Below, in pieces: positions 7,854-24,735 of a stretch of 24,893 nucleotides of DNA. The stretch is from a virus. Location: positions 1-24,893 of IMG/VR virus record IMGVR_UViG_3300020187_000203, one strand, 5' to 3'. Positions within the stretch are counted from its first letter, which is position 1; each line of letters starts with the position of its first letter. The notes beneath the pieces were generated by a model. It did no database searches, was not told the origin of the DNA, and saw only the letters and a program-made list of their open reading frames with translations. The position numbers and the translations under genes were made by a program.

Positions 7854-7856
7854 TGT

Positions 7857-7880
7857 TTATAAATATGTGGTTATAAATAT
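7857..7880 (-). promoter_or_regulatory. Two copies of ATATTTATAA before a structural gene
   Basis: Coding-strand copies at 7866-7857 and 7880-7871, 14 nt apart, in a 35-nt gap. The nearer copy is 3 nt from the ATG. The motif resembles an inverted T4 late promoter (TATAAATA) and recurs before other genes here. It is a candidate late promoter or initiation element. Confidence 0.45.
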
Positions 7881-7888
7881 TATTATTT

Positions 7889-9355
7889 TTAAGTTTCGTT
7901 ATCTGTTATTATTCCTCTTTCTTTTAAATTAAGAATTATACTATCTAAATTTTTTCTTAATTTTTCAGTAGGATATTCTGGTAAGATAATACCATTAAAG
8001 CCAGTTGTTCCACCTATTTTTTTAACATCTAAAATTATATAAACAGGATTGGTAACATCTACTTTATGTAAAACAAAACTATTTAAAACTAGGTTATAAG
8101 GTAATACTGAATTAAGCCGTAATTTTAATCTTCCATCAGCATCATCTGAGGGTTCTATTACTTCATAAATTGTATAATCATTTTCTTTATTATAACCAAA
8201 CCTAATTCTATCACCTGGGTTGACAATAAAAGGTATAGTTACAGGGGAGAAATTAAACCCTGGCTCTAGTGCAGCTTGAACATTTTGGGAATTTTGAGTA
8301 TTACCATAATTTAAAGAAATTTCATCTGAAGCTGTTACCCAAAAATTATCGCTATTAAAAAAGTTAGGGTCCTTACTCCAAAATGGTAAATTAGTAGCGG
8401 GAGCAGTGGTTTCTGGGGTTTGGGAGGTAATTTTAAAGTTAAGATAATTAATTTGTAATTGACTTGTAGCTCCACTTGGTAAATTCATAGTTATTTGAGC
8501 CTTAAATGTTCCACTAATTAATTCTTCTCTAGTAATTGGTATAGTATGGGTAAATGATTCTATGTAAGGGACACCTGTAGCCGGTGCTTCTTCTAAAGAA
8601 AAAGGTAGGGTATTTCCAATTACACTTCCATCTTTTGTTAATTCAATTGTCCCTGAGACAGCCTCATCATTCCAGCTTTCTAATTCGGTACTTATTGAAA
8701 ATACTACATTTTGAAGTTGATCTGCAGGAGAAACATCTAAAGCAGTCGTAGTATAAGTACCTACAGTTGCATCTACAGTTGCTATTATAGCTTCTGGAGA
8801 TTGAGAGGGTGTATTATAAGTACTAAATGAATTAGCCCCATCTCCAATAGTAGCTGCTCCTTTATTTAACCAAAATAAAGCCCTTGGGGTAGCATTTGTA
8901 TTTATATCACTATTAAAATTAAGAGAATTAATATTAGCCCCTTCACTAGATCCTGTTTGTGAGTATAAAATAGGTTCTTGTTTACCAATTGCTGCAATTT
9001 TTTTTCTCCCTACTAATTGACCATTTACAGCACTTGCAGCATCATTTCTAACAATTACGTTTTTCCCAATTTCAAAATTTTGATTTAAATTAATCAAAGA
9101 ATCATAATCCTCAGAAGGCTTACTTACATTACCATTTTCATCAACCAAATAAGTAATAAAATAAGCAGTTTGATCTATAATTTCAGGCCCTGTTCCTCCT
9201 GCTCCAATAAATACTGCAAAATAACTTTGGTTTCTCTCAGCAACTGGTAAACCTCCTAAAGCTCCATTTACTGGGCCTAAAAAATTATTCAATTGTTGTT
9301 GTTCAATTGAAGTATTAATTAAAGTTTGGGGTTGTGAAGATGGTGCTTGTGGCAT
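7889..9355 (-). CDS. Virion structural protein, unknown family (488 aa)
   Basis: I do not recognise the family. The protein begins with a Gln/Pro/Ser-rich stretch (MPQAPSSQPQTLINTSIEQQ) and continues with a region reading FITYLVDENGNVSKPSEDY and KNVIVRNDAASAVNGQLVGR, then a large beta-rich middle (about residues 200-340) and a domain with SPVTIPFIVNPGDRIRFGYN (about 372-391) and a short helical tail (EKLRKNLDSIILNLKERGI). The size, composition and place among tail genes suggest a virion component such as a fibre-attachment or baseplate peripheral protein. No signal peptide, membrane segment or catalytic motif is visible. The start overlaps the upstream stop as TAATG. Confidence 0.6.
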   Translation of the reverse strand: MPQAPSSQPQTLINTSIEQQQLNNFLGPVNGALGGLPVAERNQSYFAVFIGAGGTGPEIIDQTAYFITYLVDENGNVSKPSEDYDSLINLNQNFEIGKNVIVRNDAASAVNGQLVGRKKIAAIGKQEPILYSQTGSSEGANINSLNFNSDINTNATPRALFWLNKGAATIGDGANSFSTYNTPSQSPEAIIATVDATVGTYTTTALDVSPADQLQNVVFSISTELESWNDEAVSGTIELTKDGSVIGNTLPFSLEEAPATGVPYIESFTHTIPITREELISGTFKAQITMNLPSGATSQLQINYLNFKITSQTPETTAPATNLPFWSKDPNFFNSDNFWVTASDEISLNYGNTQNSQNVQAALEPGFNFSPVTIPFIVNPGDRIRFGYNKENDYTIYEVIEPSDDADGRLKLRLNSVLPYNLVLNSFVLHKVDVTNPVYIILDVKKIGGTTGFNGIILPEYPTEKLRKNLDSIILNLKERGIITDNET

Positions 9356-10389
9356 TATTTATTATAAATATTAAAATCTGTTGAACTATTTTGGCTTCCA
9401 TCATACCTACCATTAGACCAACCCATTTGAGTATAATTTGAATCTTGGATAAAAGCTTTTGGTGCAGATCCACTATATAGTAATCCAAAATTAGTAGGAA
9501 TTGTACCTCCTGTATTGTAATCTATCTGCATAAAAGTTTGAGAATATTGGGGTGTATCAACATTTCCAAAAACAGCATTATAATTAGACCAATCGAATTC
9601 TTCAACTTCAGGATTAATATTAATTAATATAGGATTAGAGACTTGAGGAGGTTGTATAGTAGATTGATTAATTTCTTCTGTTACTTGAATAATAGTAAAA
9701 GACCCCCCAAATAAACTAAAATTTACTCCCCCAAAATAATATCGACCCCCAAAATTATCATTTAAACTACTTTGGGCGCTAATAGTTTGGGTACCTGCCC
9801 CAGTTATATTAATTACATTTAAAAGTTGTATTCCATAGTTTTCCCAAAGATTAATAGGAATCCCTTCTACCCAAGCATCTACACTTCCTTCAGGTATTAA
9901 AACTGAAAGATAAATAGGTGATCCCACTATACTACTTACAGTTATACTAGAGGTTACAGATGTAGGGGTATTTGCTAAATTAAAATCTAAAAGATCAGTA
10001 GCATCATCATAATACCCACCCCCATTTCCACCTGCAACAAACAATCCCCCATCATTATCAGGATTCCACACTGCTACTTCTAATTGATTTAAAGTTTTAG
10101 ACACAGGAGATTTAAATAAGTTAAGATCTAAATTTTTAACATTATTAAGTGAAGAAGTGTTTTCAACAGGAATAACTCCCATTAAATAACACCCGTCTTG
10201 TTCTTGAGTAGTTAGAATATTATATTGAGTGGGGCCTATATCAGGATAGTTTAATATAAGATTATCTGCGGCATTTAATTGAGATCCAAAATCTTCCCCA
10301 TCCTTATCAATTTTATTAATTTTAAGATATTTTACCCCTTTTGTTAAAGTTTGTCCAAAATCTGGTTGGATTGGTGGTGCTGCTGCCAT
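9355..10389 (-). CDS. Virion structural protein, unknown family (344 aa)
   Basis: The protein starts MAAAPPIQPDFGQTLTKGVK and is rich in Asn, Gly, Ile and Thr. Its C-terminal ~80 residues contain a pattern I have seen in distant T4-like structural proteins: a tyrosine-rich stretch (YSQTFMQIDYNTGGTIPTNF), then FIQDSNYTQMGWSNGRYDGS, ending NIYNK. This suggests a conserved attachment module of a virion protein. No enzyme or membrane motif is seen. The gene lies between the 1210-residue tail protein (12-nt gap) and the 488-residue structural protein (1-nt overlap), and is expected to be made with them. Function in the particle is not known. Confidence 0.62.
   Translation of the reverse strand: MAAAPPIQPDFGQTLTKGVKYLKINKIDKDGEDFGSQLNAADNLILNYPDIGPTQYNILTTQEQDGCYLMGVIPVENTSSLNNVKNLDLNLFKSPVSKTLNQLEVAVWNPDNDGGLFVAGGNGGGYYDDATDLLDFNLANTPTSVTSSITVSSIVGSPIYLSVLIPEGSVDAWVEGIPINLWENYGIQLLNVINITGAGTQTISAQSSLNDNFGGRYYFGGVNFSLFGGSFTIIQVTEEINQSTIQPPQVSNPILININPEVEEFDWSNYNAVFGNVDTPQYSQTFMQIDYNTGGTIPTNFGLLYSGSAPKAFIQDSNYTQMGWSNGRYDGSQNSSTDFNIYNK
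9362..9371 (-). promoter_or_regulatory. ATATTTATAA motif before the 488-residue protein gene
   Basis: This copy lies 6 nt before the next start codon and inside the last codons of the upstream gene (NIYN), so coding constraint could partly explain it. Confidence 0.35.
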
Positions 10390-10401
10390 TTTTATTTATT
10401 T

Positions 10402-13400
10402 TTATCCTGAAGTAAATGCTGATTGTTGAGGGCCTGGAGAGCTTCCTTCCCCAGTATCTAAGAAACTACCAGTATCATACCATAAATATATTTCTCCTTG
10501 TTTTGGTATAGAACGTGCATTCAGAAATGGAGTAGATGGAGTTACACTACTACTATAAAAAATAATATCATAATTTATTTCTAAAGTAGAAGGTTTTTTA
10601 GCCGTGTTTTCATCATTCAATTCTCCTGTAGTAGCTATAAATTCACTACCACTAAACTCACCATCATAAAATTCTTCTTGAGTAGTATGAACTATAATTT
10701 GGGGTCCTACAGGTGTATCTACTGAAGATGACCAACTTTGAGTTACAAAAGGAGATATTGGATTAAATAATGACTGAGATTGAAAATCAACACTCTCAGG
10801 ACTATTTGCTAAAGTATTAACATTATTAAACCCACCCCCAGTACTACCACTAATAAACCCTGATTCTATAGATCCTGTATAATAAGGTTCTGAATAAGAT
10901 ACCTCAGGAAGGGGAACTCTATTTCTTTCAAGTAAATGTTGTTTAATTACTACCCCTGAAGCTAATGAAGTACTAGCTGGGATAAAATCTTTAATCATTT
11001 TAAATAAAGAATTATCAAAATATTTAATAAGTCTTATATAATCAGTCCAATTATAATTACTAGAATACTTTTCAAAGTAAGTATCGCGTAATTTATCCAA
11101 TGCAGGATATGAGGTGACAGACTGCGACAATAACCGGGGGTCTCCGATATAATCCCCTATATTAAAGTATCCTAGGGAAGCATTAATGTCATCATTGATT
11201 TCATTTTGTGGTGAAAATGCAACTTCAACATAATTTACATCTCTAGTATAAGCACTACTACTTTGTGGGTAGTTTTGTTGAATACTTCTATAAGGAGATA
11301 AAGTACTCCCAGTAGCAGGTAAAACTAAATCTTGACTTCTAATCTTTTCAGAAATACGATTTTTAATACCTACAGCAGGCTGGTCATAATATATAACTTC
11401 AGTTTGAGGATAAAATATCACATCAGAATTAACAGTATAATTACTAGTACTATTAAAAGAATTAGTTACATATGAACCTGTTATCTTAGGATGAATTGAA
11501 GTTAAAGTACCTGTACTAGTACTTAATTCACTACCTAAAGGAGCCCTAAAAATAAGATTATCAGCAGATGATGATGGATGAGTACCTTCAATAGAATAGG
11601 GGTTCATTACATAATCATGAAATATATTTTCACTTTGAGTTACATTGTAAAATCTTATTTCTTGAAATGATCCTGTTAATCCATAATAAGCATTTCCTCC
11701 TAAGGTAACACTATTATTATTATTATAGGGAAAATTAATTGCTGCGAAGATGGGGTTAACCCATGCTGCAAATGTGGTATTTACAATACTGCTAGTAGTA
11801 AATCCTATTTTAAAACCATCATTTCCATTATATATAGAATTAGCTGCTCTTAAAACTACATTAACATTATCACCTGAAACTCCTTCTCCCCTGGCAACAT
11901 GAACACCCCACCAATTTCCGTCATAAAAAGGTGCATCAACACTAGTAAGTTTAGTTGTACCATCCCATAAAGATAAAGCAGCATAATCATTAGAAGCTGA
12001 TGGGATTGCTCCTGAATATGATGCACTACTATACCCCGAACCAGTATAGTCTAGAGTTAAATAAAAATTACCAGCTCCTTCATTAAAAGAAACTATACTA
12101 TATTTGTCTTCTGATGGTAAAATATCTCCTGCTTTAAATCTAAAAAACATAGACTCAGGATTATCATCATAACTATTCCAATCTGAATTTACATTCCAAT
12201 TTATTTCTATATGATTGTTATTAGAAGAACCACTAACATAAGCAGCATAATTAAATTGATTTTGGAAATAATCCCAATCATTTGTATTATCTTTATCCTT
12301 TCCCCCAAATTCAGATATTCTCAAAATTGTGTCAGGAATACCAAAACAATTAATAAGAGCTCTTAAACCAGCTACAGTACCTTTTTTATTTAAAAGATAA
12401 GGTAAATTATGGTATAAACGTTTATAAGTAGATTTATTTATATTTTCTAAGGGATAGGCATCATTAGAAGCAGTAACATAGTTAGTAATTACTTCTGAAC
12501 CTGTGGGGGGTAATAAACTTCCTGAAGCATTAATGCCTAATAGAGCAGAATATAAATCATCTGATGAAAAATTATTTTGGTATAATTTTAAGCCTGCTCC
12601 CCTTAAAGCATCTGCTACTAAATCTTTAGAAATACCATAATCTAACCTATTATCATTATTAAATCTATCAGTTAAAGTGTTTATATAAGAATATAATATA
12701 TCAAAATGTTGACCTATCATATTTAAAAACAATTCATATCCTTCGTTAGCAGGATCTTCTCTTAAGTAAGTAGGAATAGTATTACATAAATTATCTTGAT
12801 TTTCTTCATCATAAAGTGAAGCGGTGTATAGCCTACCTCCATAATATGCCGAAGATTCATTTGCACTTCCCATCCAACTTATTACCTCAGCACTTCCGGT
12901 TGATTGAAGATTATAGGGTTGTGTTGAATTAGACTTAGGATATGCTAAAGCACCTGAAGTATAATAAAGGTAATTTTCATACCCATCAAAATTTTCAATT
13001 ATATCTGTAATTTGGTTTTGATATACTCCTAGAGAAGAAGACACATTTCCCCCTGGGGAGGATACTCCTGTTAGAGTATTTATACTATTTTGGTAAGATT
13101 CTATTTGACCTACTTTGTAGTAAAAATTTAAAATTCTTTGATAAGCAGAACTAAAATGAATAAAATTATCAAAGTTAGTATAATCTATATTAACTGTTAT
13201 ACCCTTTTGATTAAGGATATTTTGAAGTTCATTATATGAAGAAGTTAATTGAGTATTTTGTTCTAAAGAAGTATAATCTTGTTGGACTGTAGAATTATTA
13301 GTTTGGTCTGATAATTGATAGCTAAAATTAGGACCTTTTATTTGTTGAATATCTTCTTCAATAATAATAGGGGTAGGAGGTAATACTAAATTAAACCCTA

Positions 13401-14034
13401 CAGTTTCTGCTGATTCAAGTACTACTTTAAGTTGAGTATCAACTTCAATAGAACTAGGTAAAGGTTGATATAATTTTATTAAAATGCTATATTCTTCAGT
13501 AGAAGTATCTAAAAGAATATTATTAGCTATATAATAGGAATTATTAATTTCAATATAAAAATCTTTAAATAACCCTTCTACTTCTAATGAAGAACTAAAA
13601 TTTTGGACTAATCCTTCTACCTCTTTATTAGATACATTATTTACTGATAGTCTTATTTCTGTTCTACTAGGAGAAATTGTTTGGATAAAATAATTATATT
13701 CATCCGATTTTATAGCTGTTTTATAAAAGTTATAATATACATTATAAACCCCTTCATTATACCCAACTTTTTCTATATCTTTAACAGGAAAAACAACAAC
13801 AGAAGATATACTTTCTTCATTTAATGTGTTTTCATAATTTCTAATACTAAAATTAGAAACTTTCCCACTTGACAACAAATCCCCAGTAACAGTTTCCACA
13901 GAAAAAATAACTTGATCCGTTACAGGATTAAATTCTGAAGAGGAGTTTATTACAGGAATAAGTACTTCTTGAGAAGTATTATATTCTTGTTGAGTAGCTC
14001 CTTCGGGGTTAGCTAGTGGGGTTAATGTTATCAT
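10402..14034 (-). CDS. Large tail/baseplate protein with inserted LamG-like domain (1210 aa)
   Basis: This is the longest protein in the window. Residues 430-580 contain a core typical of phage tail/baseplate proteins that have been compared with the P2 I family: NEGYELFLNMIGQHFDILYSY, then YKRLYHNLPYLLNKKGTVAG (537-556), LRALINCFGIPDTILRISEFGG (558-579). A LamG/concanavalin-like beta-sandwich follows at about 600-815 (YDGNWWGVHVARG at 704-716; YYGLTGSFQEIRFYN at 783-797), which may bind glycans or other proteins. A second conserved stretch (RLIKYFDNSLFKMIKDFIPA, then SGVVIKQHLLERNR) lies at 1001-1039. The N-terminal 220 residues are beta-rich. It probably links the baseplate wedge to fibres; the exact T4 equivalent is not clear. 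Its start overlaps the upstream gene by 26 nt. Confidence 0.72.
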   Translation of the reverse strand: MITLTPLANPEGATQQEYNTSQEVLIPVINSSSEFNPVTDQVIFSVETVTGDLLSSGKVSNFSIRNYENTLNEESISSVVVFPVKDIEKVGYNEGVYNVYYNFYKTAIKSDEYNYFIQTISPSRTEIRLSVNNVSNKEVEGLVQNFSSSLEVEGLFKDFYIEINNSYYIANNILLDTSTEEYSILIKLYQPLPSSIEVDTQLKVVLESAETVGFNLVLPPTPIIIEEDIQQIKGPNFSYQLSDQTNNSTVQQDYTSLEQNTQLTSSYNELQNILNQKGITVNIDYTNFDNFIHFSSAYQRILNFYYKVGQIESYQNSINTLTGVSSPGGNVSSSLGVYQNQITDIIENFDGYENYLYYTSGALAYPKSNSTQPYNLQSTGSAEVISWMGSANESSAYYGGRLYTASLYDEENQDNLCNTIPTYLREDPANEGYELFLNMIGQHFDILYSYINTLTDRFNNDNRLDYGISKDLVADALRGAGLKLYQNNFSSDDLYSALLGINASGSLLPPTGSEVITNYVTASNDAYPLENINKSTYKRLYHNLPYLLNKKGTVAGLRALINCFGIPDTILRISEFGGKDKDNTNDWDYFQNQFNYAAYVSGSSNNNHIEINWNVNSDWNSYDDNPESMFFRFKAGDILPSEDKYSIVSFNEGAGNFYLTLDYTGSGYSSASYSGAIPSASNDYAALSLWDGTTKLTSVDAPFYDGNWWGVHVARGEGVSGDNVNVVLRAANSIYNGNDGFKIGFTTSSIVNTTFAAWVNPIFAAINFPYNNNNSVTLGGNAYYGLTGSFQEIRFYNVTQSENIFHDYVMNPYSIEGTHPSSSADNLIFRAPLGSELSTSTGTLTSIHPKITGSYVTNSFNSTSNYTVNSDVIFYPQTEVIYYDQPAVGIKNRISEKIRSQDLVLPATGSTLSPYRSIQQNYPQSSSAYTRDVNYVEVAFSPQNEINDDINASLGYFNIGDYIGDPRLLSQSVTSYPALDKLRDTYFEKYSSNYNWTDYIRLIKYFDNSLFKMIKDFIPASTSLASGVVIKQHLLERNRVPLPEVSYSEPYYTGSIESGFISGSTGGGFNNVNTLANSPESVDFQSQSLFNPISPFVTQSWSSSVDTPVGPQIIVHTTQEEFYDGEFSGSEFIATTGELNDENTAKKPSTLEINYDIIFYSSSVTPSTPFLNARSIPKQGEIYLWYDTGSFLDTGEGSSPGPQQSAFTSG

Positions 14035-14392
14035 CAGTTGTTAAATCTATAATATTTTGTTGTAATTCAAGATTTTCTTCTCTTAAAACAGTAATTTCAT
14101 CAAAAAGAGCTTGCATTTCATCCGAAATACCTTGAGCCCCCACATATTCTGTGCTTTGTTTTATTAAAAACTCATGTGAATTTATATCACCTTCTTTTGG
14201 AATTTCATAAAATAAATCATTATACAATACAAAAAATTCATCAACACTAACTGGTTCTTCAATAGGTGGAGTTGGGGAGACCAACTCAGTAAACTGAGTG
14301 TTAATAACATTTAAATAAGCAGGTTTATTATAAAGCTTCTTAGATAATTTTAGTTCACTCCCTGAGTTATATGGTTTGAGTGAGTTATCCAT
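14009..14392 (-). CDS. Small acidic coiled-coil protein (127 aa)
   Basis: I do not recognise this protein. The N-terminal half (KPYNSGSELKLSKKLYNKPA) is basic and polar; residues 94-118 (EMQALFDEITVLREENLELQ) form a heptad-type coiled coil that suggests oligomerisation or binding to another helical protein. It is acidic overall and has no membrane segment. Its 3' end overlaps the start of the 1210-residue tail gene by 26 nt, and its start overlaps the end of the upstream gene by 8 nt, so it is embedded in the operon and likely co-translated. It could be a small baseplate component or an assembly chaperone for the large protein that follows; both are guesses from position. Confidence 0.6.
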   Translation of the reverse strand: MDNSLKPYNSGSELKLSKKLYNKPAYLNVINTQFTELVSPTPPIEEPVSVDEFFVLYNDLFYEIPKEGDINSHEFLIKQSTEYVGAQGISDEMQALFDEITVLREENLELQQNIIDLTTDDNINPTS

Positions 14393-15515
14393 TTATTACT
14401 TTAAAATAATAGTTATCATTTAATATAAGTGTTTCACCTCCCAAAATGGTTTTAATTAAAATCTGATAGTATCTTTCTGGTTCTAAACCATTCATGTATA
14501 AAGTAAAGTAACTACTTTCACTATCAGCACTTACTTGAGTATAATTAGTATCAAAATCTATTACAAATTCATTAGTATCTAAATCCTTTATAGCATAATA
14601 TGAAGATGTAGGTAGATAGTGATTGATGGAGTATAATGAAGCAGTTTGGAATACCCTTTGTGGAAATTGAGGTCTACAATTTATTCTAAACTTTTCAATA
14701 CTTCCCCTATTAAAAGTCCCTGGGTTGTTACCTAGAGAAGCTACCATTTGAGTAGTATCTATGATAGTATTAGTCGAAGATCCGGTATTAAAATCATAAT
14801 CCCTCCATTTCATTGCCAACTCAGGAGGGTATATAGTATGAGTATCTATAGAAAAATATTTTATAGTAGTAACATAATTCCTATTTGCTACAAATTCATC
14901 ACTCTCACTTTGTTTAACTATAAATCCATCATTTAAAAATCCTCCTAAAGAATTAGACCCACTATACCAAGTTAAAACGGTATTAGTTACATCTACATTT
15001 AAATCTTTATCACTAGAGTAACTTAATTCTTGAGATTGAGTAACATTTAAGCCTAGTGCAGATCCCGTATACCAGGTACCCCCTCCTGGGTTATTAGATT
15101 GGTATGAAGCTGTAGCATAAGTTTGGAAAGTAGTAGGCCAATTTCCATCATTAGCACTTAATCTAGAAGTCCAACACACCCCATTTTGGGTTTGGGGTCT
15201 ATTAGGATACCTCCCAGTACCCATATTCCAAGATCCTGATATAGGATAGACTTCTAAAGTAGTAGTAGAATTTAAACCCGTTATATCTGATATGTAAGTT
15301 TTTAGATTAGATTGAAATGAAGCTGTTCCTATTTTATTAGTTAATATATCCTCTATTTCAGATTGAGAAAATTTAACTAGAAATCTACTTACTTGGGGGT
15401 CTGCAGATGTAAAAAAAGTAGATACATCTAATATTTCATCAACCCCTGTGTTTAATAAGGGAAATTGAGAATATATAGAAGCATCTTTTTCGGGAAATAA
15501 TTTATATACTGCCAT
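14385..15515 (-). CDS. Structural protein with DNRLRE-like beta-sandwich (376 aa)
   Basis: The protein starts MAVYKLFPEKDASIYSQFPL, NTGVDEILDVS, the pattern of the DNRLRE (carbohydrate-binding-like) beta-sandwich family, whose members often begin with a repeated 'D-a-x-v-y-x-x-x-P-x-x-N-x-G' stretch. SRFLVKF (43-49) and LNVDVTNTVLTWYSG (172-186) with LNDGFIVK (194-201) fit the later strands of this fold. A C-terminal part (about 245-376) contains FRINCRPQFPQR and a Tyr-rich segment. DNRLRE domains are found in secreted and surface proteins and may bind glycans; here the protein is probably a virion component next to gp6. It lies 9 nt after the stop of gp6. The family call is from motif reading, not a search. 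Confidence 0.58.
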   Translation of the reverse strand: MAVYKLFPEKDASIYSQFPLLNTGVDEILDVSTFFTSADPQVSRFLVKFSQSEIEDILTNKIGTASFQSNLKTYISDITGLNSTTTLEVYPISGSWNMGTGRYPNRPQTQNGVCWTSRLSANDGNWPTTFQTYATASYQSNNPGGGTWYTGSALGLNVTQSQELSYSSDKDLNVDVTNTVLTWYSGSNSLGGFLNDGFIVKQSESDEFVANRNYVTTIKYFSIDTHTIYPPELAMKWRDYDFNTGSSTNTIIDTTQMVASLGNNPGTFNRGSIEKFRINCRPQFPQRVFQTASLYSINHYLPTSSYYAIKDLDTNEFVIDFDTNYTQVSADSESSYFTLYMNGLEPERYYQILIKTILGGETLILNDNYYFKVING

Positions 15516-15524
15516 AATTTATTT

Positions 15525-17441
15525 TTATAATGGTACTACTCTACCTTTAATATCGGTATTAGGAAATTTAACTTCAAAAATAGAAGGATCTTGTGATGGA
15601 TAAACTACTCCACTTTGAGTAGCTCCTATTACATCATAAGCATACTTAGAATAACCTAAACTTTCACCAACTTTATTTACAATTTCAATACTTTTAATAT
15701 TTTGAACTCCCTTAACACTATCGCAAGTACTTAATACAGTATACAACTCATTTATAAGAATAGGCTTATTAATTTGCATATTCTCTACATTAAAATATTC
15801 TTGTAATCTTCTTATACAACTTGATAATACTTCATTACTGTTATAATTAGGTAATACTACAATTTCAAAATTAACTCCTATATTAATAATAAAAGCATCT
15901 TTTATTTTGATAGAATCATTAATCATTCTATATTGGGATAGATAAGTAGATAAATTTTGCTTTAAAGCACTACTAGCATTTACAAATTGACTGCTATCAT
16001 TATAAGCTAAAATATATAAATCTAAGACTGAATTAGACTCTCCTGGTAGGGTATTTTCTAATTTAGGAGACTCAGCATATACTTTTGCTATGGATCCATA
16101 TTGAGAAGGTAAACTATAAGATCTTACTAAATAATCTTCTTGAGTTACTGCTCTAAGTTGGGATGCATAGCTTGACAAAGAATTAAGCCTTAAATCTTGT
16201 GGAGAATCACCATCACCTCCCCCAGTAGCTGGGTTTGGGTTATTTACTGCTAAGGAATTAAATGTAGTTTGTGCTAAAGTAGCATCTAAATTATCAGTGC
16301 TAAATAAAACATTTCCTGTGTTTGTTATGGAACTTAAAGTATTAGCTGGGATATTAGCTCCGACACCTCCTCCAGTTAAATACCTTATAGTTAAAGTAGT
16401 ATTAGAGGGAGCAACACCATAAGTTTTATCAAACATAAAATTAGTAGGAGAATAAGCAGTTGTTAACTTATTTTGACTAAATGGTAAACCTATACCTACA
16501 TTATTGGGGTTTGGTACAATTTCCTCAGCAAAATCATTAGTAGTTCCTGCACCAAATTGTAATTGTAAAGTAGCAGATCCACTATTTAAATTATTACTAC
16601 TTATAAATCTAGAAACAAATCGATTAGGAACTTTTTTAAGCCTTAAAAGTGAAGGCACATTACCCGACTCACTTGTAGTATTAGGATCAGGACCAAAAGG
16701 ATTAGTATTCTGTATTGTTTCAAATACTGTTTCTTGAGCTAAATAATCTACCTCAGTCCACTCGTTCCCATCACTATCAATTATATCTAATATTCCCAAA
16801 GGTTGGCTAGCTATAATATTAGTTGTTAAAAATTGCTGAGGATCTCCAATTGAAATTGTTGTAGTATTAATAGTAGCAGATATTGCTTCTGCTTTCTTTT
16901 TAAGGAGGAAAGATGTTGGATTTCCCCCTGATATTTCATAAACGGATACTGTTGTAGGATCTAAAGAACTAGACTGACTAAAATCAATACGATTTTGTGT
17001 TAAAAATGATACACCCGCAGTACCTGTAACAGTAGAATTTTCTTGTATTATTAAAGAATAATTAAAATCAGGAACATATTCACTACCTACTAAAATAGCA
17101 GGAACTGTTTGAAAAATTTCTAATTCTGTAGTAGCAGCTGAAGAAACAGATGGTTTATATCCAAACATATAAGCTAAATCATATAGATTATTACTTTGCT
17201 TGGCATATTGAATAAAATTTTCCTGGATTTGGTTGTCAGTATAAAAAGCCATAACATCCCCTACGTAAGAAGCCATTTCAATAAACAACATACCCGGAGA
17301 AGCAGCACTAAAATCTGTAAAAGTGTTAGGAAAATATGTTTGGGAAAAGTTAATAAGGTTCGACCTCATCTCAGTGAAATTTCTGTTGATATACTCAACA
17401 TTTCTATTAACTTTTTTACTTGTATTTAAAGATAAGGACAT
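15525..17441 (-). CDS. gp6: Baseplate wedge subunit gp6-like protein (638 aa)
   Basis: This corresponds to T4 gp6 (660 residues), the central wedge protein that dimerises to form the inner ring of the baseplate and changes shape on sheath contraction. The N-terminal region contains the conserved helical stretch INRNFTEMRSNLINFSQTYF (18-37), then DFSAASPGMLFIEMASYVGD (43-62) and FYTDNQIQENFIQYAK. The baseplate J-type region includes RAVTQEDYLVRSYSLPSQYG, with an adjacent SIAKVYAES. The C-terminal part (QEYFNVENMQINKPILINEL) fits the gp6 C-terminal domain. The length matches the family. It follows gp25 with a TAATG stop/start overlap, the same neighbour relation as in many T4-like and contractile systems. 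Confidence in the wedge role is high. Confidence 0.9.
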   Translation of the reverse strand: MSLSLNTSKKVNRNVEYINRNFTEMRSNLINFSQTYFPNTFTDFSAASPGMLFIEMASYVGDVMAFYTDNQIQENFIQYAKQSNNLYDLAYMFGYKPSVSSAATTELEIFQTVPAILVGSEYVPDFNYSLIIQENSTVTGTAGVSFLTQNRIDFSQSSSLDPTTVSVYEISGGNPTSFLLKKKAEAISATINTTTISIGDPQQFLTTNIIASQPLGILDIIDSDGNEWTEVDYLAQETVFETIQNTNPFGPDPNTTSESGNVPSLLRLKKVPNRFVSRFISSNNLNSGSATLQLQFGAGTTNDFAEEIVPNPNNVGIGLPFSQNKLTTAYSPTNFMFDKTYGVAPSNTTLTIRYLTGGGVGANIPANTLSSITNTGNVLFSTDNLDATLAQTTFNSLAVNNPNPATGGGDGDSPQDLRLNSLSSYASQLRAVTQEDYLVRSYSLPSQYGSIAKVYAESPKLENTLPGESNSVLDLYILAYNDSSQFVNASSALKQNLSTYLSQYRMINDSIKIKDAFIINIGVNFEIVVLPNYNSNEVLSSCIRRLQEYFNVENMQINKPILINELYTVLSTCDSVKGVQNIKSIEIVNKVGESLGYSKYAYDVIGATQSGVVYPSQDPSIFEVKFPNTDIKGRVVPL

Positions 17442-17866
17442 TATAGGGGCATATTAAATTCTACAAATTCATTTAAACTAGAAAAAACTGAGTAAAATAT
17501 TTGAATTGTAACTGAGTAGTAATCTTCATCAGCTATGGTTTTTACTTCTTTTAATTTAATCGTAGGGAATATTAAACTAATATCTTCCTCTATACTTTTT
17601 TTAAGAATTTCAAGTGAAGAAGGATCATTTTGCTCAAAAAGAAAAGCTTGAACATTACTGCCAAAAGAAGGATTAAAAATTCTTTCTCCTTTAGCTGTTA
17701 AAAAATAATTAATAAGATTATACTTTATTTGTTCTGCAGTGGTATAATTAATATTAAAAACAGCATCGGAACCTGAAGTAGCAGGAGATTGGAAAGGTAC
17801 AGACAGCCCAATACCCACAGTGGGGTATTGATCAAACGCTGGTATATTTCCAACTTTGATAGCCAT
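17441..17866 (-). CDS. gp25: Baseplate wedge protein gp25-like (141 aa)
   Basis: This matches the gp25/GPW family (T4 gp25 is 132 residues), a conserved baseplate wedge protein that binds gp6 and starts sheath assembly. The diagnostic pattern is at residues 43-75: QIKYNLINYFLTAKGERIF, then NPSFGSNVQAFLFEQND, followed by an alpha-helix (LEILKKSIEEDI) and a C-terminal beta hairpin (YYSVTIQIFYSVFSSLNEF). The N-terminal 30 residues (AFDQYPTVGIGLSVPF) match the usual loose start. The gene directly precedes gp6 in transcription, with a TAATG overlap, and follows a small unknown gene with another TAATG overlap. The family was once annotated as lysozyme-like; the structural role is now standard. Confidence 0.92.
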   Translation of the reverse strand: MAIKVGNIPAFDQYPTVGIGLSVPFQSPATSGSDAVFNINYTTAEQIKYNLINYFLTAKGERIFNPSFGSNVQAFLFEQNDPSSLEILKKSIEEDISLIFPTIKLKEVKTIADEDYYSVTIQIFYSVFSSLNEFVEFNMPL

Positions 17867-18186
17867 TATTTTTTATTTATTAATCCCATTATTTGGTCCA
17901 TTCCTAATTCTCCAGGAGGTAAATCCCCACCAGGCATTGTACCTTGGGGATTAAATCTAGGTTTAACATCTGCTGAAGTAAATGAAGCTGCGGTTTCACC
18001 TAAAATATCAGCATATTTAGCTCTACGGTCTTCAGTTACAGGAACAGATTTAATAACCTTAGAAGGGGTTTCAACTATAGTTTGTTTAGGAGCCTTAACA
18101 GCTTCTAATAAAATTTCTCTTAATTCTTCTTGTATGGCCTCTTTAACGGCCTCTTTAATTAAAGATTTTAATACTTGCGATTTCAT
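17866..18186 (-). CDS. Small protein with amphipathic N-terminal helix (106 aa)
   Basis: I do not recognise the family. The first ~33 residues (KSLIKEAVKEAIQEELREIL) form one long amphipathic helix, followed by a Pro/Val-rich linker, a short motif DRRAKYADILGE (residues 53-64) and a Gly/Pro-rich C-terminus (FNPQGTMPGGDLPPGELGMD). No membrane segment. It lies between the hydrophobic 284-residue gene (17-nt gap holding one ATATTTATAA motif) and gp25 (TAATG overlap), so it is likely made with the baseplate. It could be a small baseplate or tail-assembly factor. Confidence 0.6.
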   Translation of the reverse strand: MKSQVLKSLIKEAVKEAIQEELREILLEAVKAPKQTIVETPSKVIKSVPVTEDRRAKYADILGETAASFTSADVKPRFNPQGTMPGGDLPPGELGMDQIMGLINKK

Positions 18187-18189
18187 TGT

Positions 18190-18199
18190 TTATAAATAT
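18190..18199 (-). promoter_or_regulatory. ATATTTATAA motif before a small baseplate-region gene
   Basis: The motif occupies most of a 17-nt intergenic gap and ends 3 nt before the ATG. The motif and the three bases to the ATG (ACA) are identical to the nearer copy before the 219-residue structural gene. It is non-coding here, which argues that the motif itself is selected. Confidence 0.48.
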
Positions 18200-18203
18200 T
18201 TAC

Positions 18204-19058
18204 TTAATAAGCTTTTAAATTATCTCTGTCAATAATGAATTTTAATTCATTAATCATTATTTGTTCTACTTGGGTAAAGGAAAGTTCGGTTTGGATTAGC
18301 ACTATTCCATCTTGATTTTTCCCAAGTGCCCTTATTCTATCTACAGTAGGTGAATAAGGAACTTTTTCTATTTCTAAAATAAATCCTTGATATGTTGATA
18401 AATTAGGTGATTCTTCAGCCTGCTGCTCAACTTGAGCAATCTCAACTAACTCAGGAGAAGGTTGTGGTAAAGTTATAGTATTAGGAGGACTACAAGTTTG
18501 AATTTTTTCATCTAGTGATTCTAATTTTTTAATAAAATCATTTACATAGAATGACATTAAAGCTACTGGAACTGAAAACCCATCAATAGCAAACTTAATA
18601 GGAGCAATTTTAGAATTCCCAAACTTATCAAATGTTTTATTAGTAATCAAATCATCTAAATCACTCAGCCCAGACACTATAGCTCCAGGTATAACAGGAA
18701 TAAATTTAGAACCCAGTGAAACACCTGTTTTGGCTATTTTTAATGCAACAATTAGTTTTATTAAAGAATCAATTCCAAATTTAGCTAAACCTAATGTTAT
18801 TTTAAACCCTTTTAGTATGTTAGATATAGTATTAGCTTGATCTAACACATTATTTCTAATAAAAATTACATTAGCTACTTCCTCCGGAGTAGGACATTCT
18901 TTATCAAACTTTATTAATTGCTTTTCTAAGCTAGGAATGATTCGATCTGCGAATATCATAGCTTGTTTGGTTATTAACCCTATAATTAAGTATATACCAC
19001 TTTGTTTAAGCGCACCAACAGTGGAATTATTAATAATATTTTCTTCAATTTTAGCCAT
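18204..19058 (-). CDS. Hydrophobic phage protein, unknown function (284 aa)
   Basis: I do not recognise a named family. Three hydrophobic helical stretches are visible: residues 19-41 (SGIYLIIGLITKQAMIFADR), 84-135 (ITLGLAKFGIDSLIKLIVAL, then IPVIPGAIVSGL) and 152-177 (KFAIDGFSVPVALMSFYV). The C-terminal ~60 residues are a soluble region (STYQGFILEIEKVPY, RIRALGKNQDGIVLIQTELS, FTQVEQIMINELKFIID). The gene sits between the gp5-like spike and the gp25 region, with TAATG overlap at its start. A tail hub or tape-measure-associated protein, or a protein that meets the host membrane during DNA entry, would fit the hydrophobic helices and the position, but neither is shown. It is far too short for a usual tape measure. 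Confidence 0.6.
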   Translation of the reverse strand: MAKIEENIINNSTVGALKQSGIYLIIGLITKQAMIFADRIIPSLEKQLIKFDKECPTPEEVANVIFIRNNVLDQANTISNILKGFKITLGLAKFGIDSLIKLIVALKIAKTGVSLGSKFIPVIPGAIVSGLSDLDDLITNKTFDKFGNSKIAPIKFAIDGFSVPVALMSFYVNDFIKKLESLDEKIQTCSPPNTITLPQPSPELVEIAQVEQQAEESPNLSTYQGFILEIEKVPYSPTVDRIRALGKNQDGIVLIQTELSFTQVEQIMINELKFIIDRDNLKAY

Positions 19059-20236
19059 TAGATAGTTTTACTTACTTTAGATTTAGTTTTAGTCTCTAAA
19101 TCAGCTTTGATTTTAACTAATGTAGTAATTAAAGGAGTAGTAGAAGCTACCATAGTTGTTAAATATGGAGAAGGATTTTTATTAAATTGCCCCATCCATT
19201 TTTGCAATTCACCTACTAACTCAGATAAAAGTTCTATAGTAATATCCCCTTTTAAAATAGGTTCTGTTGCATTTTTATCTCCCAATAATATATTAGGAGA
19301 ATTTACTACAAAAGTATCTTTACTATCTATATTAACTGAGTTTTGTGAATTTAAATTTATAGATTTAGCAGCACTTAACAATATGCTATCCTCTTTGGCA
19401 TTAAAAACCAATCTCCCAGAATTAATTAAAACTTGGGGAGAAGAATAATCACTAACTACCTCAGGAGCTACATTATATGAATTATAATTAAATATATTAG
19501 GCTGTAACTCAATTTGTTGTGTTGTAGTTAAATATAAAGATCCACTATCTTCATTTACATCCTCATTTACTGTAGTCCACCCTTCATCTGTTTTTAGACC
19601 TTGACCATTCCTAATTTTAATAATAGGATCTTTACCTTCATATCCCGCTAATCTTATAGAATTACCAAATCTTCCTTCTATAATATAATCACCAATATAG
19701 GGTTGTAAAGGATTTATATTTAACTGTTCAACAAACCCTTCTCCTAAATTAATTTCAGTACCCCCATCGGTAACCCTTCTAACACTACCCGCAGAAGTTT
19801 GCGAATAATCCTTTTGTTGTGATGGAGCTAATTCTGAAAATCCCGGTATTGCGTTGTGGTGTTGACTTCCCCAAACATTAATAGGAGGCAAATAATATAA
19901 TCTATTAGAAGTAGGATTGCTTTCTAAATCTGTAGAGGGTAAAACTAATACTACTACTACTTCATTTAATAAAGGATATTGTTTAATATTAGGAAATAAT
20001 GGGTAAGCAATAGTAATTGAATTAGTAGGTGTAGGTTGAAGTACATCTTCAATAAAGATGGCTCCAATAGAAGCCCATTCCCCAAAATTTTGAAATTCAG
20101 GATGAGATTCATCTAAAATAATATCCTTAACCCTACTAGAAAATATATTTTTATTTCCTTTAGATTTAGCAGGCTTATCATTCCCACTTAAAACCCCCTG
20201 AGAAAGTCCCGCTATGCCATATTGAAGACTAGGCAT
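19058..20236 (-). CDS. gp5: Baseplate central spike protein, gp5-like, without lysozyme domain (392 aa)
   Basis: The N-terminal part (about residues 33-120: FSSRVKDIILDESHPEFQN, GAIFIEDV, LNEVVVVLVLP) fits the OB-fold of gp5/VgrG-type spike proteins. It is followed by LQPYIGDYIIEGRFGNSIRL (177-196), a conserved marker of phage gp5-like proteins. Residues 265-320 show alternating short beta strands (GRLVFNAKEDSILLSAA, SINLNSQNSVNIDSKDTFVV) typical of the trimeric beta-helix needle. The C-terminal 60 residues are helical. T4 gp5 (575 residues) has a lysozyme domain between OB-fold and needle; nothing like it is visible here. The protein probably forms the membrane-piercing spike. It is flanked by TAATG overlaps on both sides. 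Confidence 0.8.
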   Translation of the reverse strand: MPSLQYGIAGLSQGVLSGNDKPAKSKGNKNIFSSRVKDIILDESHPEFQNFGEWASIGAIFIEDVLQPTPTNSITIAYPLFPNIKQYPLLNEVVVVLVLPSTDLESNPTSNRLYYLPPINVWGSQHHNAIPGFSELAPSQQKDYSQTSAGSVRRVTDGGTEINLGEGFVEQLNINPLQPYIGDYIIEGRFGNSIRLAGYEGKDPIIKIRNGQGLKTDEGWTTVNEDVNEDSGSLYLTTTQQIELQPNIFNYNSYNVAPEVVSDYSSPQVLINSGRLVFNAKEDSILLSAAKSINLNSQNSVNIDSKDTFVVNSPNILLGDKNATEPILKGDITIELLSELVGELQKWMGQFNKNPSPYLTTMVASTTPLITTLVKIKADLETKTKSKVSKTI

Positions 20237-20577
20237 TATTTTTTATCTTCCTTGAATTTTTTAACTTCTTCTAATAACTGATATTTCTCATCTTCAGTCA
20301 TTCCAAAGTTGCCATCATCTTGCCCTTCATTATTTACAGCACGTTGAATAATAGTAGCCATTTTGATGAGTTGTTCATCATTTTTAACTGAAATTTCAAG
20401 GTATTCTTTTAATAAGGGAACTACTAAAGTAGCATCCCCAATATCCTGAATTAAAGGTTTTAGCTCTGATATAAGAGTAGAAATTTGTTCTTCTTTTTTC
20501 TTTTGGTTTAGGTAAATCTCTTCCAATATATCGGAAAATTTTTTCTTACCAAATATTTTTTTATCAAGCTGTCCCAT
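20236..20577 (-). CDS. Small charged coiled-coil protein (113 aa)
   Basis: I cannot name the family. The protein is highly charged and almost wholly helical: KKIFGKKKFSDILEEIYLNQ (6-25), a coiled-coil stretch around QKKKEEQISTLISELKPLI (25-43) and a C-terminal helix with DEKYQLLEEVKKFKEDKK. No membrane segment. It is encoded 13 nt after the sigma gene and overlaps the gp5-like gene (TAATG). T4 has a 112-residue co-activator, gp33, that works with gp55 at late promoters; the size and adjacency raise the possibility that this is its counterpart, but I see no sequence motif that proves it. A baseplate-related role is equally possible. Confidence 0.6.
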   Translation of the reverse strand: MGQLDKKIFGKKKFSDILEEIYLNQKKKEEQISTLISELKPLIQDIGDATLVVPLLKEYLEISVKNDEQLIKMATIIQRAVNNEGQDDGNFGMTEDEKYQLLEEVKKFKEDKK

Positions 20578-20590
20578 ATTTATTTTTTAT

Positions 20591-20600
20591 TTATAAATAT
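20591..20600 (-). promoter_or_regulatory. ATATTTATAA motif at the sigma gene's 3' end
   Basis: This copy overlaps the last codons of the sigma gene (Tyr-Leu-stop) and lies 13 nt before the next ATG. It is followed by ATAAAA, so the coding strand also reads TATAAATA, the T4 late promoter consensus, about 15-21 nt before the ATG. Confidence 0.42.
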
Positions 20601-21328
20601 GGTTCTTCTTTAAAATTAGTATAACCATTGTTTTTATAAAAAAGATAATGTTCTTTATAAATTTTACCTAATCTATCTGCTATTTTAGTAATTTGAGGTG
20701 TTTTAACCTCTACCATTTCTCTTATATAGATATAAAGTGCTTTTTTATTAAAAATATCTAAAGAATCCCTTTGTTGAAATATAGATAAAATGGCATCTGC
20801 AATTTGTGCATCTCTAAGTTTAGGAAATAATTCGGAAAGATTATTTTGGCAATAAGTAACATACTCATCCATAAAAAGTGAATCATTGTCTTTTTCCATA
20901 GGGTCATAATCCATATCATATGAATAATTTAAATTATGATATAATTCCTCTACTGGGGCTTTATCAATTCTTTTTTTATAGTTTTTAGTATTTTGTATAA
21001 TTAAATAACGTTTAGCAATAGTACCAAAATATGAAAATGCTTTTGCCCCCCGTGTAGGATCAAATAAATGAATTTTACTTAATAAAAATGTTATTACCTC
21101 GTGTTGGAGGTGTTCAATTTCATTTACTTCTGTATAATAAAATTTAAAAGTATGGATTATATTTTCGGTAAGTTTAAAAAACCCATAATGGATATCCTTA
21201 CGATAAATCTCACTCCTTTCTTCGGGATCAGAAGAGCCATTGTATCTAACAATAGCATCTTCTGTTTCTTGAGTAAAATATTGATTTTTAGTCTTTTTTT
21301 TCCTTTTTCTAGGGGGTAATGTACTCAT
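20591..21328 (-). CDS. gp55: Late-transcription sigma factor, T4 gp55-like (245 aa)
   Basis: This is a small sigma-70-family protein of the phage late type. It directs host RNA polymerase to late promoters, in T4 together with gp33 and the sliding clamp gp45. The N-terminus is basic (PPRKRKKKTKNQYFTQETED). Region 2 is clear at residues 70-118: EIEHLQHEVITFLLSKIHLF, then DPTRGAKAFSYFGTIAKRYL, the usual 'F-D-P-x-R-G-x-x-F-x-x-Y' helix that binds polymerase and melts the -10 element. A C-terminal helical part (KTPQITKIADRLGKIYKEHY, 209-228) could be a DNA-binding helix pair. T4 gp55 has 185 residues; this one is longer. The last residues (NFKEEPYL) are hydrophobic and acidic, which would suit clamp binding, but that is a guess. 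It overlaps the upstream gene by ATGA. Confidence 0.82.
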   Translation of the reverse strand: MSTLPPRKRKKKTKNQYFTQETEDAIVRYNGSSDPEERSEIYRKDIHYGFFKLTENIIHTFKFYYTEVNEIEHLQHEVITFLLSKIHLFDPTRGAKAFSYFGTIAKRYLIIQNTKNYKKRIDKAPVEELYHNLNYSYDMDYDPMEKDNDSLFMDEYVTYCQNNLSELFPKLRDAQIADAILSIFQQRDSLDIFNKKALYIYIREMVEVKTPQITKIADRLGKIYKEHYLFYKNNGYTNFKEEPYL

Positions 21329-21606
21329 AATTTATCTATCCTAAAATTAGATAGAACTTTCTGTAATTCTTTGATCTGCTCATACATAAAACCAATTTCA
21401 TCATCGTTTTTAAATATTCCTTGCTCATCAACTTTTTTCATTTTTTCATCTGAAAATTCTATTATTCTACTGAATTGGTCAAGGTATGTTATATACCCTG
21501 CCAATATATCTTCCTGTTTTTCATTCTTTCGTAAAAGGTTAATAGTAGTAAATCCTAAAATTACAACTATTATACTTAATACACTAATTACTATTGTTTC
21601 TATCAT
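21325..21606 (-). CDS. Small membrane-anchored coiled-coil protein (93 aa)
   Basis: Residues 3-25 (ETIVISVLSIIVVILGFTTI) are one clear transmembrane helix at the N-terminus; the basic residues after it (LLRKNEK) suggest that the rest stays in the cytoplasm. The rest is a charged helical region with likely coiled coil (EKMKKVDEQGIF; YEQIKELQKVLSNFRIDKL). No named family is recognised. The gene overlaps both neighbours by ATGA: the HD hydrolase upstream and the sigma factor downstream, so all three are translationally coupled. Similar one-helix proteins in T4-like phages are often of unknown function; holin- or spanin-like roles are possible but there is no lysis gene nearby to support it. Confidence 0.65.
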   Translation of the reverse strand: MIETIVISVLSIIVVILGFTTINLLRKNEKQEDILAGYITYLDQFSRIIEFSDEKMKKVDEQGIFKNDDEIGFMYEQIKELQKVLSNFRIDKL

Positions 21607-22373
21607 AGCTTATCAAATAAATCTTTAAGACCTTTACTTTCAAGTTGAGAAAGTGCTTTATCTTTTGTGGATTTCTTAGCTTCTTTCGTTAATGTAAAAT
21701 TCCCTGCTTGGGTAGGCACGGAATTTTTAAATTTAGGTAACCATTCACGCTCAAATTCAATACGGGCTGCCATTAAATCCGCTTGATGGAGAATAAATGG
21801 TAAAGAAGTACGTGGTTTTTGTTCGGGCATAAATGCCTTAAGATATTTCTCATTAGCTACATCATACAACCCATCATGGGTTTGAATAGCTAACATTTCA
21901 TTAAATGAGTATTGAATACCATGTGATTGAAGCATAAATAAACCACGATCAGGTACGGATGCGAATGGGACTTGTTTATTAAACATATAATCCTCACCTA
22001 ATTTATCTTTTCTCCACTTATCTGTTTGAGGAATATAAGACTCATGTTCTTCGCTACCCATTTTACCTAAATCATGGTTAATAGCAGAGAATACTAATTC
22101 CTCTGTGGTAAAAGTAGACATATCTGCCCCTTCTTCTTCCCACAATTTAGCTTGTTTAAGAGCACAACGAACTACTCGGTTTACATGCTCAACATAACCC
22201 CCTGGGAATGCATTATGATATTCTTTTTTATGAGCAGCAGGCATCATCATAATGCGGTCCTCATATTTTTTATAAAATTCAATAAGTTTATTCTTTCTAT
22301 CACCTGTAATATGACCTGTAATATTCTTGCAGAATTCTTCCCAATTGATTTGAATTTGTTCGGCTGTAAGCAT
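21603..22373 (-). CDS. HD-domain phosphohydrolase (256 aa)
   Basis: The HD superfamily metal site is readable in order: GGYVEHV (H63), INHDLGK (H100-D101), a later histidine (candidates H151 in QSHG and H166 in QTHDGLYD) and HQADLMAARIE (D199). HD proteins are metal-dependent phosphohydrolases acting on nucleotides, cyclic or oligo-nucleotide signals or RNA; the substrate here cannot be read from sequence. Homologues of this general size occur in T4-like phages, where roles in nucleotide metabolism or in removing host alarm nucleotides have been considered. The N-terminal ~50 residues are helical, and the C-terminus (KEAKKSTKDKALSQLESKGL) is basic. The start overlaps the upstream stop as TAATG; the end overlaps the membrane protein gene as ATGA. 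Confidence 0.82.
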   Translation of the reverse strand: MLTAEQIQINWEEFCKNITGHITGDRKNKLIEFYKKYEDRIMMMPAAHKKEYHNAFPGGYVEHVNRVVRCALKQAKLWEEEGADMSTFTTEELVFSAINHDLGKMGSEEHESYIPQTDKWRKDKLGEDYMFNKQVPFASVPDRGLFMLQSHGIQYSFNEMLAIQTHDGLYDVANEKYLKAFMPEQKPRTSLPFILHQADLMAARIEFEREWLPKFKNSVPTQAGNFTLTKEAKKSTKDKALSQLESKGLKDLFDKL

Positions 22374-22567
22374 TATACTCGGTTTTGTTCGTTAGGAGTC
22401 ATAGGTTCACGTTCTACCGTTGCTTTAATCTCCTCAACTAATTCTTCACACTCTACTTTTACGTTATTAACTTCTAAGCTATTTCCTCTTCCATTATGGA
22501 ATTCAATATGCTTTAATTTAGCTTCGAGATTTTCGAGCTTTTTTTGGATGTGTTGTCTAAAATACAT
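22373..22567 (-). CDS. Small coiled-coil protein (64 aa)
   Basis: This short, charged, helical protein (MYFRQHIQKKLENLEAKLKH, CEELVEEIKATVERE) has a coiled-coil pattern for about residues 5-55 and no membrane segment. I do not recognise it. Its stop overlaps the HD hydrolase start as TAATG, so it is likely co-translated and may bind that enzyme or another small partner; this is inference only. The reading frame looks real because of the coupled start/stop and the charge periodicity, and because opposite-strand frames there show no protein-like pattern. Confidence 0.62.
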   Translation of the reverse strand: MYFRQHIQKKLENLEAKLKHIEFHNGRGNSLEVNNVKVECEELVEEIKATVEREPMTPNEQNRV

Positions 22568-22590
22568 TTTTAAATGGTTTAAAACTAAAG

Positions 22591-23043
22591 TTACGAATTA
22601 AAATTTGAGGAATCAAGTAATTTTTTAAGAAAAGCACATTTTTCATACTCTTCTTGTTCCTCAAAATACTGCATTGATATATTTAATGCCTTCTTTAAAT
22701 TCTTATATGATTTTTCTTTATTACAAATATCTTTTAATATAGATTGAGAATATGAATCGTTAATATCAAATTTATTAATATATTCCCATGCCCTATTAAA
22801 TAGCATATAACGACCTGCTTTTTCAACGCCATCTGCATTAAAGGAAGGATCAGCTTCCTTAAACATTTTAACTAAACCCTTCTGATAAGAAAGATTATTA
22901 TTAATAAGTTTTGAAAACATCCCAATAAAATATCGGGGATGATTTTCATCAATCATTTTTTTAACAAAATCAGGAGTTGGGATTTCTACCCCATTATCTT
23001 CTTTATCAGAATTAAATGCTCCAAAAATTTTGTTAATGTCCAT
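22591..23043 (-). CDS. Small soluble phage protein, clamp-loader small-subunit-like in place (150 aa)
   Basis: I chose the ATG at 23043 (MDINKIFGAFNSDKEDNGVE) rather than the upstream ATG at 23070, because the inner start is preceded by the ATATTTATAA motif 5 nt away and the extra nine residues (MRLTIFIND) look non-conserved. The protein is mostly helical and acidic, with PDFVKKMIDENHPRYFIGMF and a C-terminal helix pair (SMQYFEEQEEYEKCAFLKKL, LD) that resembles UVR-type helical hairpins. Its general helical layout reminds me of the small subunit of T4-like clamp loaders (gp62), but I cannot identify a decisive motif, so the name is only a suggestion. Without other replication genes beside it, the function stays open. 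Confidence 0.55.
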   Translation of the reverse strand: MDINKIFGAFNSDKEDNGVEIPTPDFVKKMIDENHPRYFIGMFSKLINNNLSYQKGLVKMFKEADPSFNADGVEKAGRYMLFNRAWEYINKFDINDSYSQSILKDICNKEKSYKNLKKALNISMQYFEEQEEYEKCAFLKKLLDSSNFNS

Positions 23044-23048
23044 ATCAT

Positions 23049-23058
23049 TTATAAATAT
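23049..23058 (-). promoter_or_regulatory. ATATTTATAA motif before the 150-residue protein gene
   Basis: The motif is 5 nt before the chosen ATG at 23043 and would lie inside the reading frame if the longer start at 23070 were used. It therefore supports the shorter start. Confidence 0.42.
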
Positions 23059-23106
23059 AGTTAACCTCAAGGTCTCCTATAGTAGTGTTGTAAGTCCAAT
23101 AATTTT

Positions 23107-23295
23107 TCATGTAATATCCCATTCTATAGCAGCCATTAAATATGCAGATCCAGTATCTATATTAGGATTTTCTTTTAAAATCGCCATTGCTTCAGCTCTT
23201 ACTTCATTCCTTAGCTCATAATCATCAGCTTTAGATAGAATCATTTGAACTACGTCTTTTGTTTGCATTGTATATGGATTTGTATTCTTAGACAT
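23107..23295 (-). CDS. Small helical protein (62 aa)
   Basis: This short protein (MSKNTNPYTMQTKDVVQMIL, then YELRNEVRAEAMAILKENPN) is mostly helical, with no membrane segment and no family that I recognise. It begins just after the terminator hairpin of the DUF932 gene and is followed by a 63-nt gap before the next start. The gap after its stop holds the ATATTTATAA motif. The sequence is protein-like (balanced charged and hydrophobic residues) and in line with the strand of its neighbours, which is why I accept it in spite of its length. Confidence 0.6.
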   Translation of the reverse strand: MSKNTNPYTMQTKDVVQMILSKADDYELRNEVRAEAMAILKENPNIDTGSAYLMAAIEWDIT

Positions 23296-23316
23296 TAAGT
23301 AAATATTAAATCAAAA

Positions 23317-23342
23317 GTGGGGGGAGTCTTCACTCCCCCCTC
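23317..23342 (-). terminator. Rho-independent terminator after the DUF932 gene
   Basis: A perfect 9-bp stem (GGGGGGAGT with ACTCCCCCC, 23319-23327 and 23332-23340) closes a 4-nt loop. On the minus strand the hairpin is followed by ACTTTTGATTT, a short T-rich tract. It lies 20 nt after the DUF932 stop and separates that gene from the small genes downstream. Confidence 0.8.
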
Positions 23343-24714: not shown

Positions 24715-24735
24715 ATTAATAAATATCCAAAAAAC

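Follow-up and report, generated by a model that had tools for sequence, protein, structure and literature searches.

The window analysed here is the whole of a 24.9-kb viral fragment from IMG/VR (IMGVR_UViG_3300020187_000203; 24,893 nt) in which a ten-nucleotide sequence, ATATTTATAA, recurs shortly before start codons. From sequence comparison, ATATTTATAA, composed of a core TATTTATA followed by A-rich DNA, is very likely a −10-like late-promoter element of a T4-type lineage infecting Bacteroidetes. The comparison demonstrates enrichment, orientation, conservation with drifting spacing and a post-terminator position at individual loci, together with a late-gene bias, an absent −35 element and co-occurrence with a sigma factor. 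The transcription start, recognition by this sigma and the timing of the late-box promoters are predictions.

The fragment encodes T4-type baseplate wedge proteins (gp6- and gp25-like), collagen-like tail-fibre proteins and a primase. By baseplate protein, its cultured relatives are Flavobacterium phage vB_FspM_immuto (immuto; 44% identity over 98%) and Microcystis phage Mel-JY01 (43%). A ranking by the major capsid protein of immuto lists Mel-JY01, LR756508 and Rhodothermus phage RM378 in this order, all ahead of Straboviridae, which places immuto, on this protein sequence, in the Far-T4 neighbourhood. Since the capsid gene is absent from the window, placement of the window itself rests on shared proteins. 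A Shine-Dalgarno-like core is present at 8% of window starts versus 48% in Mel-JY01; the low value is as expected for Bacteroidetes, the predicted host group of the window phage.

Six exact copies of ATATTTATAA are located on the minus (coding) strand and none on the plus strand, at the positions given in the initial annotation. The chance expectation, both strands together, is 1.32 ± 1.05 copies; among 100 dinucleotide shuffles, none contained six or more. The gene at 7194-7853 is preceded by two copies, a proximal one at 7857..7866 (3 nt before the gene) and a distal one at 7871..7880 (17 nt). The spacing of the distal copy agrees with orthologues in two related genomes (G010, 17 nt; G004, 15 nt) and in immuto (~16 nt); the proximal copy is extra relative to these relatives, whose box sits 15–17 nt out. 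The copy at 9362..9371 lies 6 nt before the gene at 7889-9355, inside the 3′ end of the gene at 9355-10389. The copy at 18190..18199, a candidate leaderless start, lies 3 nt before the gene at 17866-18186, and the orthologues of this gene have the same 3-nt spacing in 49 of 71 group members. The copy at 20591..20600 lies 13 nt before the gene at 20236-20577 and overlaps the last codons and stop of a gene for a gp55-like protein, and the copy at 23049..23058 lies 5 nt before the gene at 22591-23043 (ATG at 23043). The measured gaps of 3, 17, 6, 3, 13 and 5 nt bear out the reported range of 3–13 nt with the second copy of the doubled site farther away. The 40 nt or less upstream of the 26 starts amount to 4.2% of the strand, and the chance of all six copies falling there is ~5e-9. 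Two copies had been assigned to pure intergenic gaps; there are instead three such gaps, 7854-7888 (two copies), 18187-18203 and 23044-23106. Two variant boxes on the minus strand were absent from that list: ATATTTACTT at 23297..23306, just before the gene at 23107-23295, and ATATTTATTA at 24717..24726, just before the gene at 24310-24714. Upstream of the first variant, at 23319..23340 on the minus strand, is a GC-rich, terminator-like hairpin, GGGGGGAGTGAAGACTCCCCCC (fold z = −3.3). The T4 late box TATAAATA is not enriched in the window (11 observed, 9.3 expected).

The survey was extended to 102 non-redundant related loci totalling 1.2 Mb, with upstream regions taken as the 45 nt before starts and with genes called mechanically in sequences that lack annotated records. 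The 10-mer was found at 162 upstream sites (23.9 per 10 kb), at 20 sites in sense gene bodies (0.22 per 10 kb) and once in antisense. The upstream density is ~100 times that inside genes, so the 10-mer is not equally common in coding regions, the comparison proposed with the initial annotation; the two densities also exclude a chance AT-rich word. The reverse complement was found upstream of starts at none of these loci, and strand ratios in whole relatives were 11:1, 14:0, 7:0 and 6:0. The view that the motif cannot fix the direction of transcription is wrong, given this strict orientation with the genes. In IMG/VR, ATATTTATAAACAATG is present at at least 120 loci; among the matches listed, 93 of 120 belong to the phage family of the window, and in 89 of these 93 the box-adjacent ATG opens a reading frame of at least 40 codons. 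The same scan also identified unrelated phages (G012, loci L229-L233, and L018) with repeated, near-identical TTGACT-N-TATAATATATTTATAAACAATG promoters; in these the ATATTTATAAACAATG match arises incidentally from an ordinary sigma-70 promoter.

A candidate factor for recognition of the box is encoded in the window at 20591..21328 on the minus strand, a 245-aa, gp55-like protein of the sigma-70 family. The Sigma70_r2 domain was detected in 20 of 31 relatives (best E 1.8e-4) and in the window protein itself with E 0.11, below the cut-off of Pfam. The protein is 46% identical to its counterpart in immuto (78174-78872) and 39% identical to that in Mel-JY01. Its match to phrog_234 had an E of 0.5, and a PDB sequence search with the profile of the gp55-like sigma returned no match. 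T4 gp55 is a highly diverged sigma-2 protein that reads a −10-like element without −35 contacts (PMC7892883, PMC2988020). A logo of 84 non-redundant box sites has upstream information near zero and no −35/−33 signal, which is what a gp55-like factor without −35 contacts predicts. It is proposed that host RNA polymerase carrying this factor opens the DNA at the box; the factor contains sigma region 2 and gives no indication of −35 recognition. RNA would then start a few nucleotides downstream and the virion genes would be turned on late. Where the box ends 2–5 nt before the AUG, the RNA start would fall on the AUG or no more than about two bases from it, and the mRNA would be leaderless or nearly so; where it ends 8–25 nt before, a short A-rich leader would result.

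The box ends 2–3 nt before the AUG at 87 of 162 raw sites and, by median, in 11 of 49 orthologous groups. At five loci (L263, L290, L292, L294 and L298), all orthologues of the gene at 22591-23043, a terminator is followed after 10–37 nt by the box and 2–3 nt later by the AUG, and the protein N-terminus is conserved (M-x-x-x-K/R-I/L-F). With terminator, box and AUG this close, there is no room for a leader. At one further locus a terminator directly precedes the box and the ATG follows 16 nt after it. Boxes are also located directly behind intrinsic terminators at immuto TerL, immuto gp65, G001 and the RM378 genes at 29547 and 99207. Of 36 RM378 sites, 10 have the first T of the box precisely at −13 and none has it nearer to the AUG; read in the T4 register, this position would place the RNA start on the A of the AUG or beside it. 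From these arrangements, the mRNAs are probably leaderless at the sites 2–3 nt from the AUG, five of them behind terminators. The part of the initial annotation that proposed a −10 box for a gp55-like sigma and nearly leaderless mRNAs is supported by the sequence comparisons.

A promoter that is correctly identified may nevertheless yield transcripts with leaders, either because RNA starts farther upstream or because the AUGs at 2–3 nt are served only by polycistronic read-through. This alternative has a substantial though minority chance of being correct. Most Flavobacterium mRNA leaders exceed 10 nt (PMC6847099), leaderless mRNAs make up 5.5% in F. psychrophilum (PMC9723704), and a spacing of 2 nt in the T4 register would put +1 one or two bases into the AUG. 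On the other side are the five loci that pack terminator, box and AUG together ahead of conserved N-termini, and the hard minimum spacing observed in both clades. In B. thetaiotaomicron, mRNAs with leaders shorter than 10 nt make up 3.7% (PMC7366714). Because leaderless mRNAs are rare in the host phylum, leaderless late mRNAs would be a speciality of the phage; leaderless phage mRNAs as such are already known (PMC5312081).

The late-gene bias is seen in immuto, where the temporal class of the genes is predicted from gene content. A motif search on mixed upstream regions of the clade blended early and late boxes. Unbiased motif discovery, with the two halves of the immuto genome run separately, yielded nTATTTATAAnA from the late half and TCnTATATTTAGGT from the early one. 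The pattern TATTTATA, which was derived from the other genomes, precedes 16 of 84 late-half genes versus 7 of 147 early-half genes (p = 0.001), and genes that carry it include portal, TerL, sheath, tube, hub, tape measure and tail spike. Conversely, TATATTTAG precedes 18 of 147 early-half genes and 0 of 84 late-half genes. The T4 box TATAAATA is not enriched before late genes (3/84 late versus 3/147 early). The early immuto box is similar to the TAnnTTTG element of host sigma-A (PMC9723704, PMC6847099). In an observation on the early region itself, immuto (L235) genes 145 to 125, at 67.6–75.3 kb of NC_055915, form a run of small early genes; many of them have a host-like box TCnTATATTTAGGT of their own at the almost fixed distance of ~24–31 nt from the start, which makes up an early promoter array.

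These data bear on whether the late box is simply the −7 element of an ordinary host sigma-A promoter (TAnnTTTG, −12 to −5), used by a phage with no factor of its own. Both elements are AT-rich and lie at a similar distance, TATATTTA looks like TAnnTTTG, and the early class of immuto has exactly this appearance. Nevertheless, the late box has neither the terminal G nor a −33 TTG, frequently carries C or A in place of a host-box T (ACTATTTATAA), and in immuto segregates from the host-like box and marks another set of genes. Its conservation extends to a cyanobacterial phage and, in the form TATTTAA, to RM378. An ordinary host promoter is therefore improbable.

A slightly poorer prospect still is that ATATTTATAA is a translation-initiation element, such as a ribosome or S1 contact or a Kozak-like context, in a host that does without Shine-Dalgarno signals, which the initial annotation had offered as its alternative. 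Many box sites do lie 2–3 nt from the AUG, A is found at −3 in 60% of window genes, and translation in F. johnsoniae is tuned by A at −3, −6 and −11 to −14 (PMC6847099). An element read by the ribosome would be at odds with the spacing, however: for the gene right after the gp55-like gene, the box is kept in 72 members at 2–21 nt from a conserved start. In Mel-JY01, a Shine-Dalgarno-using phage, the same box is located a median of 32.5 nt from the start, behind Shine-Dalgarno leaders. This variable spacing and the recurrence at ~33 nt in Mel-JY01 disfavour a role in translation. Furthermore, the box precedes only a minority of genes, mostly late ones, and is found right behind terminators at individual loci and at strand-switch heads.

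The strand-switch heads are those of RM378, where the sister box TATTTAA occurs 39 times within 45 nt of starts versus 6 times in gene bodies, and TATTTA(A/T) is present at 16 of 29 strand-switch heads versus 21 of 116 other genes (p = 1.8e-4). Genes preceded by the box in RM378 include tube, sheath and portal. RM378 also encodes a homologue of the gp55-like sigma that is not annotated as such, the hypothetical protein Rm378p020 (L318, 17032-17826; E 1.9e-11 in a profile search). The sigma factor already annotated in RM378, at 128329-128928, is a different protein.

The relation of the box to that of T4 had been described as a near-palindrome, and TATTTATA is indeed the exact reverse complement of TATAAATA. 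No inversion is needed, however, because two A-to-T changes convert TATAAATA into TATTTATA without a change of orientation, which is the better reading; very probably, it belongs to a T4-type late system with a changed box. A T4 box read on the opposite strand, with antisense transcription away from the gene, may be dismissed as highly improbable, since every site is oriented with its downstream gene in nearly one-directional genomes and the diverging units of RM378 each carry their own correctly oriented box.

Several observations weigh against a late promoter read by a gp55-like sigma. Terminators before boxed genes are not significantly more common overall (2/46 versus 11/545), so that the terminator argument rests on individual loci, and the box also precedes seven early-half immuto genes. 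Homology to T4 gp55 is weak: hhalign against true gp55 gave a probability of 60% and an E of 8.6e-5 over 98 co-linear columns. The fold matches of the sigma model (pLDDT = 74) are not significant (best E 0.04); the top matches in both structure libraries are mostly sigma factors. Homologues of gp45 and gp33 were not found with Pfam (PF02916, PF16805), a search in which the controls gave no match either. Lastly, the 484-kb phage LR756508 (L306, L307) encodes a gp55-like homologue with 39% identity, and inspection of 100 kb of it revealed no TATTTATA box; its late genes may rely on a different one.

In terms of known systems, the late promoters of T4 (TATAAATA, with gp55/gp33/gp45) likewise have one AT-rich, −10-like box with no −35 element, located before virion genes and read by a reduced sigma-2-type phage factor (PMC2988020, PMC7892883). 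The lineage described here differs in its box, TATTTATA(A), in a far diverged sigma, and in a spacing that often implies near-leaderless mRNAs. Cyanophages S-PM2 and Syn9 also place a T4-type late box, NATAAATA, before structural genes (PMC2984593). Whereas TATAAATA or NATAAATA is kept in T4, KVP40 and cyanophages (PMC2984593), the T4 core is lost in the window lineage, even in the Microcystis phage Mel-JY01. RM378, the prototype of the Far-T4 phages, comes next among the characterised relatives of immuto by major capsid protein (38%) and shares the sigma homologue; its heptamer TATTTAA ends in AA, not AT, compared with TATTTATA(A/T) in the family of the window. In Far-T4 phages, none of the T4 core genes for transcription regulation had been detected before (PMC4360716), and an earlier description of the box was not found in the open-access literature.

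Two further features of the window may be noted. On the minus strand, 1252-3243 and 3258-5033 encode two tail-fibre-like proteins whose N-termini are nearly identical and which contain long collagen-like Gly-Thr-Ser/Gly-Ser-Ser repeats. Upstream of the late region, 23362-24198 on the same strand encodes a phage family protein of unknown function (phrog_12094, E 8e-46), with no late box before the gene.

Taken as a whole, the proposal is of a branch of the T4 superfamily, formed by the clade of the window, immuto, Mel-JY01 and RM378, with a re-specified late box TATTTA(T/A)A and a previously unrecognised gp55-like sigma. Many late mRNAs would be leaderless in those of its hosts that lack Shine-Dalgarno signals, with promoter and start codon fused in a unit of 13–16 nt. 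In this full form, the proposal has about an even chance of being correct. Far-T4 phages are common in aquatic environments and gain from this work a late promoter, a candidate sigma and cultured systems for study (immuto on Flavobacterium sp. LMO8, RM378 on Rhodothermus, R. marinus). With the box, sequence alone suffices to map late operons in hundreds of uncultured contigs. If late mRNAs are indeed leaderless, this phage lineage tunes the spacing from promoter to AUG to the translation style of its host, with a spacing near zero in hosts without Shine-Dalgarno signals and ~33 nt in a host with them.

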